Shown one piece after another: positions 4,627-13,226 of a DNA stretch of 48,024 nucleotides. The notes below the pieces were generated by a model that ran no database searches, had not been told where the DNA came from, and was given only the letters and a program-made list of their open reading frames with translations. This DNA comes from Bacillota bacterium (lineage in GTDB: Bacteria; Bacillota; Clostridia; Clostridiales; Clostridiaceae), in assembly GCA_021781655.1 (NCBI GenBank), contig JAJXWJ010000023.1, positions 1 to 48,024 of the forward strand, in the 5' to 3' direction. Both the position numbers and the translations under genes were made by a program. How positions within the stretch are numbered: the first letter of the stretch is position 1; the number at the start of each line of letters is the position of its first letter.

Positions 4627-5532
4627 CTAATCTGGTTTAAATAAATCTTTGATTATTTTTTCATCCTCTTCTACAAATTCAAGTTTAATTTCAGATTCAT
4701 CGATAGTTCCTTCAAATTCACCTTTCAATAACTTTACTTCATCAATGGATACCTCTTTTATTGTTTCTTCTCCATCTAAGCCTTTTACCCTAATTTTTAT
4801 ATTTTCCTTAACTACACTATTTGATACAACTTCACCATTCCCATATTCTGATTGTACAATTGCTCCCACTTTAGGAAGCTTCTTTCTAATGCCCTCATAA
4901 GTCGACTGCTCATAATTTAAGCAACACATAAGTCTTCCGCATATACCAGATATCTTTGTTGGGTTTAAAGAAAGGTTTTGCTCTTTTGCCATTTTAATAG
5001 ATACTGGGGCAAAATCTCCAAGATGCGTGGAGCAACACATAGGTCTTCCACAAGGCCCAAGGCCTCCCAGCATTTTAGCTTCATCTCTTACACCAATTTG
5101 TCTAAGTTCAATTCTTGTTCTAAAAATTGCAGCTAAGTCTTTAACTAATTCTCTAAAATCAACCCTACCCTCAGCAGTAAAATAAAAAATTATTTTATTA
5201 TTATCGAAAGTATATTCAACATCAATCAATTTCATAACTAAATTATGCTTTTCAATTTTACTCATGCAAATTTCAAAGGCTTCTTTTTCTTTACTTTTAT
5301 TTTCTTTATATTTATTTTCATCTTCTTCTGAAGCTTTTCTTATTACTGATTTTAAAGGGGGAACTATTTTATCATCACTCACCTCTTTATAACCAATAAC
5401 ACAGTTTCCAAACTCTATTCCTCTTGCAGTCTCAACTATAACATTATCACCTTTTTTTATATCGTTTTCTCCAGGTGAGAAGTAATATATTTTACCAGCA
5501 CTTTTAAAACGCACCCCTACTACAGTTACCAT
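4627..5532 (-). CDS. ricT: PSP1-domain regulatory protein RicT (YaaT)
   Basis: 301 aa. The PSP1 C-terminal domain contains two cysteine clusters, LGPCGRPMCCSTHLGDFAPVS and ISGICGRLMCCLNYE (about residues 155-205), as in Bacillus YaaT/RicT. RicT forms a complex with RicA and RicF that binds Fe-S clusters, stimulates RNase Y-dependent mRNA processing and affects sporulation and competence. The position after holB matches Bacillus holB-yaaT. A GGAGGTG site precedes the ATG. The C-terminal 40 residues are acidic. Identification by motif and context is strong; partner proteins are not in view. Confidence 0.93.
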   Translation of the reverse strand: MVTVVGVRFKSAGKIYYFSPGENDIKKGDNVIVETARGIEFGNCVIGYKEVSDDKIVPPLKSVIRKASEEDENKYKENKSKEKEAFEICMSKIEKHNLVMKLIDVEYTFDNNKIIFYFTAEGRVDFRELVKDLAAIFRTRIELRQIGVRDEAKMLGGLGPCGRPMCCSTHLGDFAPVSIKMAKEQNLSLNPTKISGICGRLMCCLNYEQSTYEGIRKKLPKVGAIVQSEYGNGEVVSNSVVKENIKIRVKGLDGEETIKEVSIDEVKLLKGEFEGTIDESEIKLEFVEEDEKIIKDLFKPD

Positions 5533-5575: not shown

Positions 5576-6514
5576 TTATATTCCATACATTTTAATAAGC
5601 ATAATGTGATAACTCATTGCTGAATTAACATTGCTTTCTAAATTTATTCTAGTTTCATTTATTATATTTACAAATTCCTTAAGCATATTAAAGGAAAATG
5701 TACCAGCTAAATGTTTAATATGCTCTAGTTTATCTAAATTTACTATTAACTCTTCATTTCCCGTTTCTTTGTAAATCATTATGTCTCTTATATATGATAG
5801 AAAACATAACATAGTTTCTTTCCACTGTTCCTTATATATAGTCAAAACAGCTTCGTAATTAAGGAAACTTTGAAGTTTGACTTCTTTAATATCAAGCATG
5901 ATTTTCATAACATCGCTTCTTAATGCAATAAAAATACTATCTTCCATAAATCTTTCTGCTCTTCCAGGTACTCCATTGCAAAAAGCCTTAACAGCTTTAA
6001 GCTTAATTTCTTCGATATCTTGATATCTATTTTTTATAAACTTTATAATTTCTTCATCTGAAAGTCTTCTTAATTTATGTACTTGACATCTTGATATAAT
6101 AGTATCTAAAATATTTTCTACATTTTCACAAAGTAGAAATATAAAAACACCTCTTGGTGGCTCTTCTATAGTTTTAAGAAATGCATTTTGAGCTTGAGTG
6201 GTCATTTTATCAGCATCATGCAAAATAATTACTTTTCTAGTACCTTCATAAGGCTTCTTATTTGTTTCTTCTATTATTTGCCTAACTTGATCCACAGAAA
6301 TTGATTTTTTATTATTCAATATTCTATACTGCTTTATATCCGCATAATCTTTAAAATCTTCCTTACCCAAAATGTTTATTGCAGAAAATCTCGCAATGTT
6401 ACTCTTACCAAGTCCATTTTCTCCTACTATAATATGTGCATGAGATATCTTATCTGCTTTTATTAAATCAATAATATTTTTTATAATCCTCTGGTGGCCA
6501 ATAAAATCTTTCAT
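5576..6514 (-). CDS. holB: DNA polymerase III subunit delta'
   Basis: 312 aa from the ATG at 6514, chosen because AGAGGTAGCA lies just before it and because the longer reading frame would run back into the kinase gene. It is a AAA+ clamp-loader subunit: GLGKSNIARF is a P-loop-like segment near residue 35, ILHDADKMTTQAQNAFLKTIEEPP is the Walker B/sensor region and TIISRCQVHKL carries the SRC motif. Delta' helps open the DnaN sliding clamp. It sits between a nucleotide kinase and ricT as in Firmicutes, where tmk usually precedes holB. Confidence 0.93.
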   Translation of the reverse strand: MKDFIGHQRIIKNIIDLIKADKISHAHIIVGENGLGKSNIARFSAINILGKEDFKDYADIKQYRILNNKKSISVDQVRQIIEETNKKPYEGTRKVIILHDADKMTTQAQNAFLKTIEEPPRGVFIFLLCENVENILDTIISRCQVHKLRRLSDEEIIKFIKNRYQDIEEIKLKAVKAFCNGVPGRAERFMEDSIFIALRSDVMKIMLDIKEVKLQSFLNYEAVLTIYKEQWKETMLCFLSYIRDIMIYKETGNEELIVNLDKLEHIKHLAGTFSFNMLKEFVNIINETRINLESNVNSAMSYHIMLIKMYGI

Positions 6515-6530
6515 TGCTACCTCTTTTTCT

Positions 6531-8543
6531 TTACACTTGATTGCATTTAATATATTCACGAATGTTTTTAATACATTCATCTAATTCATAGTTTAAATAA
6601 AAATTATCTATTTTACAAGCTTTTAATTTATCTTCATTAAAATCAATACTATCTGCTAAAAACCTCCTGCATAGTTCTTCATAGTTTGGATTCTCCTGCA
6701 TCATTTCTCTATCTAAAGCCCTTTTTAACCTTGTTCCATCATCTAAATTGATATAAACCGGCTTTATAGAATCTTCTCCAAAGTATTCCTGTAATTTCTT
6801 ATAAGCCTCTAAAGTTGTTATCATAATATAATTATACCTTTTCAAATCTATCTGTCCATCATCAATTGTGCAATAGTACCATTTTCCCTTTACAGTATTA
6901 TATTGCCTCAATTCAATAATTTTATTTTCCACTTGAAATTTCTTTAATTCCTCTTCTTTTACAAAATGATATTCAATACCATCTGTTTCGCTATCTCTTT
7001 TTGGTCTTGTAGTATACAAAACAATTCCTTTTAAGTTTAAATGGTCATCATCCTTTAAAGCTTTAAAAACAGTATCTTTTCCAGAACCACTTTTCCCAAT
7101 TATGCAAAAAATCTTACCCATTTTTTCCTCCGTAATAATCTTTATCATCCTTTTTTCATTTATCCCAATTACCTTATTATTTATGCTTAAATAATAATTT
7201 ATATTTTTTATAACCTTCTTATCTATTATTTCTCCTGGCACTACTATAGGTATGCCTGGAGGATATGGTACAATTGCTTCTCCACATATTTTACCTTCTG
7301 CTTCTATGTACATAATTTTTTCTTTTTGCCTATCAAGAGCCTCATATGGAAGCATTACCTTATATGGTATTTTAGTATCAATTATTTCTTTTGCTTTTTC
7401 TTTAAGTTTTTCAAGATCACAATTTTTAAGAATTTCATATAACCTTTCTATTTCTAATTCTTTATTAAAAGGAGAAAAAATAAGTACTACATTGCTTCCG
7501 TCACTCATTTCTGGTTGAATATTATTTTCTTTTAAATAATTATATAATTTAAAACCACTATATCCTTTTGAAACATGCAGCACATATCTAGTAATATCTA
7601 TGTTATATACATTTAAGTCTTCCAATTCTATAACATGAAAACCTTCAAGTTCATTGATTTTATTTTTATAATTTTTCAAGAACTTTATAAGCTTTCCATA
7701 ACTTTCTTTTCCTTTTTCCTCTAAAAAATATCTTCCATAATCCATTGAAGCCATAAGCATGAAAGAAGGGCTTGTACTTAAAAATGCACTAGTATAAAAA
7801 TCAACCTTTTCTTCATCTATATCCTTACCAATATGCAAATATGCTGTTTGAGTAAAGCTTGGCAAAGTTTTATGAGAACTCATGACTACCATATCAGCTC
7901 CCAAACTGACTGCATTTTCAGGCAAAGCTTCATGAACTCCAAAATGAGCTCCATGTGCACTATCGACAAATACTTTAATTCCCCTTTTATGTGCTTCATA
8001 AATTACTTTTGATAAGTTACAACAAACACCATAATAATTAGGATAAGTTATCAATATTCCCTTTGCATCTAAGTTTTCATCCATTATGTCAATAAGTTCA
8101 TTTTCATCTATAGAAAGAGGAGCATTAAAACCTTTATCTACTTTATTTTTTAAATATATCGGGTTTAACTTCCTCATAATTATTCCATTAAAAATAGACC
8201 TATGGCAATTCCTCTCAACTATAATTTTATCACCTTCATTAAACTGAGAATATATAACAGTAAGATTTCCGCTAGAACTCCCATTAACTAAAAAATAGGA
8301 TTTCTTACTTCCATAAAAATCACTTAAAAGTTTTTGTGCTTCTTTTATTATTCCTTCAGGATTATGAAGATTATCTAACCCATCTACCTCGGTAAGATCA
8401 CATTTTATAATACTTTCATAAAATTTTACTCCTATATCTGTATATAAAAATCCTTCACCTGCCTTATGCCCTGGCATGCAAAACATTGAATTTTTTTCAT
8501 CTACATATTTCAATAAGCCCTCTACAAGTGGTAGTTTTGACAA
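6531..8543 (-). CDS. Orn/Lys/Arg-type PLP decarboxylase fused in frame to a guanylate kinase-like domain
   Basis: 670 aa with two complete domains. Residues 1 to about 465 are a fold-type I PLP decarboxylase of the YaaO/SpeA type: FCMPGHKAGEGF at the N-terminus, VDSAHGAHFG, PLP lysine in SSHKTLPSF (Lys225) and VPYPPGIPIVVPGE near 425. Residues 475-670 form a guanylate kinase: P-loop GKSGSGKDT (483-491, Asp where Ser/Thr is usual) and the GMP-binding TTRPKRDSETDGIEYHFV. In relatives these are separate neighbours. Here no stop separates them, yet GGAGG and an ATG remain at the junction. It overlaps gin by 22 bases. Products may be agmatine, cadaverine or another polyamine precursor, and a nucleoside diphosphate. 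The fusion may be real, or the kinase may be made mainly from the internal start. Confidence 0.85.
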   Translation of the reverse strand: MSKLPLVEGLLKYVDEKNSMFCMPGHKAGEGFLYTDIGVKFYESIIKCDLTEVDGLDNLHNPEGIIKEAQKLLSDFYGSKKSYFLVNGSSSGNLTVIYSQFNEGDKIIVERNCHRSIFNGIIMRKLNPIYLKNKVDKGFNAPLSIDENELIDIMDENLDAKGILITYPNYYGVCCNLSKVIYEAHKRGIKVFVDSAHGAHFGVHEALPENAVSLGADMVVMSSHKTLPSFTQTAYLHIGKDIDEEKVDFYTSAFLSTSPSFMLMASMDYGRYFLEEKGKESYGKLIKFLKNYKNKINELEGFHVIELEDLNVYNIDITRYVLHVSKGYSGFKLYNYLKENNIQPEMSDGSNVVLIFSPFNKELEIERLYEILKNCDLEKLKEKAKEIIDTKIPYKVMLPYEALDRQKEKIMYIEAEGKICGEAIVPYPPGIPIVVPGEIIDKKVIKNINYYLSINNKVIGINEKRMIKIITEEKMGKIFCIIGKSGSGKDTVFKALKDDDHLNLKGIVLYTTRPKRDSETDGIEYHFVKEEELKKFQVENKIIELRQYNTVKGKWYYCTIDDGQIDLKRYNYIMITTLEAYKKLQEYFGEDSIKPVYINLDDGTRLKRALDREMMQENPNYEELCRRFLADSIDFNEDKLKACKIDNFYLNYELDECIKNIREYIKCNQV
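7119..7135 (-). promoter_or_regulatory. internal ribosome binding site and ATG at the decarboxylase/kinase junction
   Basis: On the minus strand ACGGAGGAAAAAATG lies in frame within the fused reading frame. GGAGG is six bases from the ATG at 7121, ideal for initiation, and MGKIFCIIGKSGSGKDT is a natural kinase N-terminus. A separate 196-aa kinase (6531-7121) could therefore be translated from the same mRNA. Confidence 0.7.
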
Positions 8544-10073: not shown

Positions 10074-10161
10074 GTTTTCTATCTCACTCCTTTACTGCTT
10101 TTTCTTTATTATATATTAATACTTTCATTAATTCCTGTCTTTTTTTGCTATTATGCACAGC

Positions 10162-10203
10162 AAAGAAAAACCCTTGAAAATAATATTTTCAAAGGTTTTT
10201 CTT
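10162..10203 (-). terminator. terminator of the tRNA operon
   Basis: Hairpin with arms rich in AAACC/GGTTT and TTGAAAAT complement pairs (left arm 10165-10181, right arm 10185-10201) directly downstream of tRNA-Cys on the minus strand, ending in a TTTTTC tract. Confidence 0.7.
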
Positions 10204-10277
10204 TGGAGGCGCCACCCAGATTTGAACTGGGGATCAAGGTTTTGCAGACCTATGCCTTACCACTTGGCCATAGCGCC
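10204..10277 (-). tRNA. tRNA-Cys (GCA)
   Basis: 74 bases including encoded CCA. The seven-base acceptor stem GGCGCTA pairs with TGGCGCC, the anticodon loop CTGCAAA gives GCA, and GTTCAAATC forms the T loop. Second gene of a two-tRNA unit. Confidence 0.96.
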
Positions 10278-10284
10278 GTGTATA

Positions 10285-10360
<76 letters not shown>

Positions 10361-10405
10361 AAAACTATAAATTATCATTAATAACACAGCCATATTATTC
10401 TACCA

Positions 10406-10449
10406 AATAAATAATTGTTAGTCAATCATTTTTCTAACAATTATTTATT
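10406..10449. repeat. 16-bp-arm stem-loop upstream of the tRNAs and the sirtuin gene
   Basis: Perfect arms AATAAATAATTGTTAG (10406-10421) and its complement (10434-10449) with a 12-base loop, between divergent units. No T-run follows, so it may be an operator-like or cruciform element rather than a terminator. Confidence 0.55.
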
Positions 10450-11555: not shown

Positions 11556-12890
<1,335 letters not shown>

Positions 12891-12906
12891 ACGGCCTTTA
12901 ATTAGC

Positions 12907-13000
12907 CTTATCTTTCAGTTTTACCTGCTGGAATTGGCACCATGAAATTATCTGGTTGCCAAGGCTTCAAAGGGCCAGTCCCTCCACCTTTCTTGATAAG
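12907..13000 (-). ncRNA. SAM-I (S-box) riboswitch aptamer upstream of metY
   Basis: All S-box landmarks are present in order on the minus strand: P1 CTTATC (12995-13000) pairing with GATAAG (12907-12912), AAGAAAGGTGGAGGGACTGG, CCCTTTGAAGCC, GGCAACC, the TGGTGCCAATTCC element and AGCAGGTAAAACTGAAAGATAAG. It binds S-adenosylmethionine and represses metY when SAM is abundant. Confidence 0.96.
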
Positions 13001-13226
13001 TGTATCTTTAGTTTAAATCAATTATATACAGCTTAACATACTATGTCAATAGGTAAAATATATTTTATTTAATATTTTCATATACGTATTAACCTTAATT
13101 TAATAAATATCCAGTTCAAATTTAATTTTTTTTGATGTATAATAATATTATAAACTGTAGTTCACCGTTTATGTGTTTTAGGCTTGTTTATTTTGCTGCA
13201 AGTAAAATTTTATAGGGGGTTTTTTA

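Follow-up and report, generated by a model that had tools for sequence, protein, structure and literature searches.

Thymidylate kinase (Tmk) is an essential enzyme. Two published studies describe the systems closest to the one reported below. No other (d)NMP kinase is regarded as common to all of Bacteria, Archaea and Eukaryota, and cases in which another enzyme takes the place of Tmk have been described: P. putida KT2440 uses a dNMPK (PP_1964) instead of Tmk, and certain further bacteria have a dNMPK gene beside holB, where tmk would stand (PMC10653934). Regarding the neighborhood of tmk, yaaO lies directly upstream of it in B. subtilis and other Firmicutes, this position being a feature of YaaO, a decarboxylase that reportedly leaves polyamine content unchanged and influences the modification of EF-P (PMC8503589).

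Here, we analyzed a stretch of 48,024 nucleotides from a bacterium of the Clostridiaceae (contig JAJXWJ010000023.1 of assembly GCA_021781655.1; hereafter the window), in which a YaaO-type decarboxylase and a guanylate-kinase-like protein share one reading frame. As in the Firmicute yaaO–tmk pair (PMC8503589), the YaaO-type decarboxylase stands directly upstream of a holB-cluster kinase, whereas this kinase has no Tmk-family match and both genes lie in one frame. With the F. nucleatum fusion of an ancestral ODC to an arginase, the locus shares an AAT-fold decarboxylase bearing a second enzyme domain at its C-terminal side; the arginase partner there, which differs from the one here, is called unlikely to be active (PMC8503589). 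With P. putida, it would share the supply of the essential dTMP kinase by an enzyme of another family with phage relatives and, with the bacteria carrying a dNMPK beside holB, a tmk place that is taken while no dTMP kinase gene is detected elsewhere (PMC10653934). However, the P. putida enzyme belongs with the dNMPK of T4 and its function is proven, while the kinase of the window has a predicted guanylate kinase fold and is known from its sequence and a model. Among the matches listed in a search of the open-licence literature (titles and abstract openings), none assigns a thymidylate kinase function to this protein. Since it stands in the place of tmk and is found almost only in genomes devoid of tmk, it probably substitutes for thymidylate kinase, a role that has gone unrecognised.

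The fused frame and its junction

The features of the locus are listed below (coordinates in the window).

6531..8543, minus strand: fused ORF, YaaO-type decarboxylase and guanylate-kinase-like kinase, 670 codons, TTG start
7134..8543, minus strand: decarboxylase part, residues 1–470
7122..7133, minus strand: junction residues 471–474 (TEEK), at or past the point where the decarboxylases of most relatives end
7127..7131, minus strand: preserved internal Shine-Dalgarno sequence GGAGG (GGAG, GAGG or AGGA upstream of the kinase start in 36 of the 42 kinase loci compared)
6534..7121, minus strand: guanylate-kinase-like kinase, residues 475–670, proposed thymidylate kinase, with internal ATG at 7119–7121
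5576..6514, minus strand: holB (DNA polymerase III delta'), marking the tmk slot
4627..5532, minus strand: ricT (yaaT), which comes next in the conserved cluster

Elsewhere in the window, a SAM riboswitch (12905–13002, minus strand) lies upstream of ORF 11556–12836, which by eye encodes a PLP enzyme of Cys/Met metabolism. The plus-strand ORF 10153–10410 (85 aa) runs across two tRNA genes of the opposite strand (10207–10277 and 10288–10360) and is thus probably spurious.

The initial annotation had claimed that a decarboxylase and a kinase, normally two genes, form a single open 670-codon frame in which a GGAGG motif and a good ATG are retained at residue 475. The frame is indeed open over its whole length, and Pfam finds the domains of both halves, with OKR_DC_1 (best stretch, residues 5–306, 245 bits) and OKR_DC_1_C (residues 368–455, 43.1 bits) followed by Guanylate_kin (residues 477–549, 49.3 bits). 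The OKR_DC_1 match from residue 5 identifies the decarboxylase as the YaaO, or ancestral AAT-fold, type; no receiver domain N-terminal to it is listed in the Pfam search of the fused protein, and the gene sits directly upstream of the tmk slot, as the position of YaaO requires. The DNA upstream of the kinase agrees with the second part of the claim, the ATG at residue 475 being preceded by acGGAGGaaaaa, with GGAGG five bases upstream. The decarboxylase tail VIGINEKRMIKII aligns with the C-termini of relatives, most of which stop there or shortly beyond, so the decarboxylase frame is ancestral up to the junction. Past this natural end, the frame runs TEEK-Met and the Shine-Dalgarno sequence comes without spacer. 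A model of the whole fusion (mean pLDDT 84.3, pTM 0.66, with low confidence at residues 1–27 and 46–61) is uninformative on contacts between the two halves; it places the last decarboxylase strand at residues 466–470 and the first kinase strand at 478–483, leaving a link of about seven residues (471–477).

In order to look for a stop between the two domains in relatives, the DNA upstream of the kinase was compared at 42 loci, namely those of 41 of the 42 genomes that carry the kinase (G201 being left out) and the MAG locus L033. In 39 of them, the 174 nt before the start of the kinase contain an in-frame stop, which bears out that decarboxylase and kinase are normally two genes. Within the family, the other 24 carriers all encode the kinase in a separate frame of 195–217 codons, the 670-codon frame being restricted to the genome of the window. 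Besides the window, only L068 and L071 have no upstream stop. L068, from another family, is a second decarboxylase–kinase fusion (737-codon frame with about 40 linker residues by eye) and also keeps GGAG before the kinase ATG; it lies on a contig of 4,385 bases in a draft genome that is 83% complete. Fusions of this kind are hence found in two of the 42 loci. Other long frames were rejected as the same fusion: those of L071 (387 aa) and L072 (422 aa) have no decarboxylase match, stops precede the kinase in L033 (a Blautia MAG), and the 703-aa frame of G078 proved in the DNA to be a decarboxylase (482 codons) followed by a separate tmk-type frame (217 codons).

Both genomes carrying a fusion are drafts and a run of six A's ends in the A of the kinase ATG in the window, so a sequencing or assembly error is possible. 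The two genes might then be separate or overlapping in the cell, as they are in relatives, a reading that is consistent with the 168 contigs of the window's genome, with the nearness of stops in the neighboring frames (26 nt upstream and 5 nt downstream of the ATG) and with the independent kinase frame in the other carriers of the family. We regard it as a tentative alternative, since the decarboxylase tail continues in frame to its natural end, directly followed by the Shine-Dalgarno sequence, and since a second fusion occurs in another family, even if this one comes from a short contig of an incomplete draft. A frameshift as origin of the fusion, as the A-runs and the nearby out-of-frame TGA and TAA might suggest, is disfavored by the alignment of the tail in the present frame. 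Because this alignment reaches the natural end of relatives, the simpler reading would be that the stop and the spacer which used to separate yaaO from the kinase gene were lost, and the fusion in the window may be real. As to the further proposal of the initial annotation that one mRNA could give both a fused and a free kinase, it is plausible, as the separate genes share a frame and the start of the kinase is kept; we infer that both protein forms are made.

Occupants of the tmk slot and distribution of tmk

In the loci of the family that were compared, the cluster is ordered yaaO–tmk–darA–holB–ricT. The kinase of the window takes the slot of tmk, with holB (its start set at Met23 of the listed ORF 5576–6580, where the family match begins) and then ricT downstream. 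The gene of the cyclic-di-AMP receptor, darA, lies between the kinase and holB in most family loci compared and was not seen there in the window (6514–6534); it is also missing from this interval in the ORF lists of L033, L051 and L055. Over 35 bacterial kinase loci, 17 of which have flanks of about 1.5 kb or less, holB is found downstream in 31 and a decarboxylase match upstream in 27. The exchange is best seen within a single genus, g3 (68 genomes), where eight loci were compared: four have tmk and four, which are the sole carriers in this genus, have the guanylate-kinase-like gene, all of them before darA–holB–ricT. In the loci compared, the tmk slot holds three types of kinases: canonical tmk, the guanylate-kinase-like protein and a tmk-like protein of about 235 aa. 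The latter stays under the TIGR00041 cut-off (G120, G096, G137; L076, L077, L200, L201).

The distribution of the kinase was examined in two samples of genomes. In the family sample (206 genomes), carriers were defined by a kinase profile match of at least 316 bits, the next match reaching 125 bits, and 25 genomes carry the kinase. With TIGR00041 scored on at most 14 candidates per genome, 16 of these carriers have no match at E 0.001, eight have only matches that fall short of E 1e-12, and a strong match is seen in G147 alone. A tmk match at E 1e-12 is hence missing in 24 of the 25 carriers, while 177 of the 181 non-carriers have one at this value or better; the four exceptions (G033, G044, G056 and G086) are genomes that are 51–84% complete. 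The class sample consists of 391 genomes drawn from a larger group, 19 of them shared with the family sample, and was scored on at most eight candidates per genome. It contains 18 carriers at 190 bits or more, G559 (L072, 91.7 bits), which passed the E cut-off, having been dropped as a carrier and having its own tmk match (E 4e-20). TIGR00041 matches at E 0.001 are found in none of these 18 carriers, for 13 of which the absence of tmk rests on their being missing from the list of genomes with a match, vs. 344 of the 373 other genomes. Fisher tests give 4e-26 for the family, 1e-18 for the class and 2e-17 for the class without the window's own family, values that are too optimistic as the genomes are related and not independent samples. 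The other 29 non-carriers of the class sample, such as G320 and G297, also have no TIGR00041 match at E 0.001, and some of them are 99–100% complete; a missing tmk match is therefore not always filled by the guanylate-kinase-like kinase, and these genomes may contain other Tmk substitutes or a tmk that was missed by the first search.

Taken together, the two samples yield 42 carriers spread over 20 genera. At E 0.01 and with more candidates scored per genome, PF02223 has no match in 25 of these carriers and recovers all four controls, and the T4-type dNMPK family PF21448 is over its cut-off in none of the 42. Canonical gmk is present in all 42, as established with PF00625 (at least 155 bits) for 16 and with TIGR03263 over its cut-off for 26, including elsewhere in the window's own genome. 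Among the kinases compared, Tmk is the one that is missing when the guanylate-kinase-like kinase is present.

Family, predicted fold and proposed substrate of the kinase

The kinase is modeled with a mean pLDDT of 93.5 and adopts in the model the fold of guanylate kinases: Foldseek retrieves guanylate kinases (E 1.1e-12), and the superposition on the guanylate kinase 7luy gives Z 22.5 and 1.8 Å over 181 residues. With 61.6 bits, it stays far below the TIGR03263 guanylate kinase cut-off (160.45 bits). The Tmk families PF02223 and TIGR00041 give no match for it (E up to 1, 0.01 and 0.001), and PF21448 is not among the families listed for it. A tree, in which the phage-type rows have long branches, unites 42 kinase sequences (41 carriers plus L033) in a single clade (support 98/90), and ten canonical Gmk of the family form a separate group (100/100).

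The comparison with bacterial Gmk reveals shared and divergent features at the predicted active site. We take numbering and roles from work on the yeast guanylate kinase, Ser34 and Asp98 being guanine-reading positions and Arg38, Arg41, Tyr50 and Tyr78 ligands of the GMP phosphate; Glu69 reads guanine in Gmk. The predicted fold, the P-loop and the equivalents of Arg38, Arg41, Tyr50, Glu69 and Tyr78 are in common, these five residues being kept in all 42 kinases. In contrast, the equivalent of Ser34, which is Ser in ten of ten Gmk, is so in only eight of the 42 kinases (otherwise Thr in 12, Pro in 11, Leu in 8, Ile in 2 and Gly in 1), and the equivalent of Asp98, invariant in the ten Gmk, is Thr in all 42; the kinase of the window has Leu and Thr at these positions. 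In addition, an arginine (Arg72) two residues past the kept glutamate is invariant in the 42 kinases and faces a gap in the Gmk alignment. Two PDB entries are, we assume, concerned with the Ser34 position: the title of 4f4j refers to a guanylate kinase made a spindle-orienting protein by a single mutation, and that of 9jae to an S37P mutant. Together, this glutamate and this arginine could recognise thymine by its N3 and O4.

The initial annotation of the kinase as a guanylate kinase is not supported, given its score against the family model and the presence of a separate canonical gmk. The genomic evidence points to a thymidylate kinase, and it is from the slot and the mutual exclusion with tmk that we infer dTMP as substrate. 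A variant of this reading is that the enzyme is a broad dNMP kinase acting on dTMP together with dGMP, dUMP or others, in the manner of T4 gene 1 and of P. putida PP_1964, the latter being a precedent for such an enzyme (PMC10653934). The best profile match, phrog_1815 (123.6 bits), and a relative with the same key residues on a large viral contig would fit this variant, which we see as possible, if rather doubtful. The conserved residues cannot separate a broad from a narrow specificity and, as no PF21448 match is listed, any likeness to dNMPK would be in function only.

It is unlikely, in contrast, that the protein is a second guanylate or dGMP kinase and that dTMP is phosphorylated by another enzyme. 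The predicted fold, the kept Glu69, the Ser retained in eight sequences and the guanylate kinase label of the family in PHROGs are in line with such a function, and candidates for the missing activity exist, with dNK-type genes in several g34 and g43 genomes and the protein L084 in the window's genome. However, a canonical gmk is already present in every carrier, the kinase tracks the absence of tmk in two samples and occupies its slot, the equivalents of Ser34 and Asp98 are changed, and no PF02223 match is found in 25 of the 42 carriers.

Regarding these other candidates, nine of the 42 carriers pass the PF02223 cut-off, eight of them weakly (up to about 38 bits). The ninth, G147, has the kinase plus a clear tmk-like gene (102–106 bits; L045, L075), and no holB or ricT match was found within 5.4 kb downstream of its kinase. 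Four weak PF02223 ORFs, from G199, G181 and G201, were scanned, those of G196, G197, G200 and G473 (L081–L083 and the G473 match) being left out. Three of the four (two in L078 and the one of L080) match dNK far better (186–201 bits) and were rejected as thymidylate kinases; G199 and G181 thus have deoxynucleoside kinases in the ORFs scanned, and that of G201 (L079) is borderline (dNK 44 bits, PF02223 39 bits). Enzymes of the dNK type could in principle help to supply dTMP kinase activity. In the window's genome, scoring of more candidates gave one partial tmk match (20.5 bits), in L084 (G000:C65:17033-17404; L084:1333-1890). This P-loop protein of 186 aa scores 36 bits against PF02223 (over the Pfam cut-off of 27) and 39 bits against TIGR00041 (under the cut-off of 83.25), and it could be the main local alternative source of dTMP kinase. 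Its gene adjoins that of a PF14907 nucleotidyltransferase.

Origin of the kinase and its fusion partner

The phage guanylate kinases of PHROG 1815 are the closest family by profile, and L112, a 281-kb viral contig of IMG/VR, encodes a copy that is 44% identical and has Glu70, Arg72 and Thr103. They differ in that just five of the 80 viral-contig relatives retained, out of 135, have this full set of residues. Two of these five (L110 and L111) adjoin a bacterial decarboxylase and were for this reason set aside as phage evidence. Close copies of the kinase are also held by five faecal scaffolds deposited as 'Bacteriophage sp.', which were left out as well. The one inspected, MT836336.1 (L109), an unverified deposit, carries decarboxylase–kinase–holB–ricT and hence looks like bacterial DNA. 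A phage source of the kinase is likely in view of these viral relatives. Moreover, the g3 carriers are scattered in the kinase tree, L098 with L099, L100 with another genus and L101 alone, which hints at more than one acquisition.

In the course of events that we propose, a phage-type nucleotide kinase, as its viral-contig relatives suggest, would be the source of the kinase with guanylate kinase fold. This enzyme would have displaced tmk in situ, between yaaO and (darA–)holB–ricT, and would have taken over from Tmk the phosphorylation of dTMP to dTDP, perhaps accepting other dNMPs too. In the genome of the window, the stop codon and the spacer between yaaO and the kinase gene would have been lost; with both gone, ribosomes translating yaaO would run on into the kinase and produce the decarboxylase–kinase fusion, while the retained GGAGG and ATG would still give the free kinase from the same mRNA.

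As for the decarboxylase half, the idea that the fusion joins polyamine and nucleotide metabolism was not borne out, the partner being a YaaO-type decarboxylase of the tmk cluster. A polyamine–nucleotide link by fusion is weakly founded because YaaO is reported to be without effect on polyamine content (PMC8503589). Decarboxylase and kinase are paired, on the simplest account, because yaaO has long been placed before the tmk slot. That the fusion is real and truly bifunctional, coupling the decarboxylase with nucleotide metabolism, is quite improbable: the frame is open across both domains, both halves model as folded with a short link (apart from the two N-terminal stretches of low confidence) and the two fusions belong to different families, yet fusion is so rare, and a decarboxylase match upstream missing in enough loci (eight of 35, some with short flanks), that such a coupling is not generally needed, and in the F. 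nucleatum fusion, too, activity of the partner is doubted (PMC8503589).

Considered as a whole, the best explanation, which we hold with good confidence, is thus a thymidylate kinase with guanylate kinase fold that occupies the tmk slot in many Clostridia, comes from a phage-type source and, in the window, is made both as a fusion with YaaO and as a free kinase. It also appears rather likely that this family, labeled guanylate kinase, constitutes a new class of thymidylate kinases, derived from phages, that has displaced Tmk in place, apparently repeatedly, and that occurs here YaaO-fused as well as free. If true, the replacement of Tmk by a relative of guanylate kinase would close a gap in the pathway for many genomes of Clostridia and correct the annotation of the kinase family as guanylate kinase. 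It would moreover show how proteins of guanylate kinase fold can shift in their choice of substrate, and these bacteria may escape inhibitors directed at Tmk.
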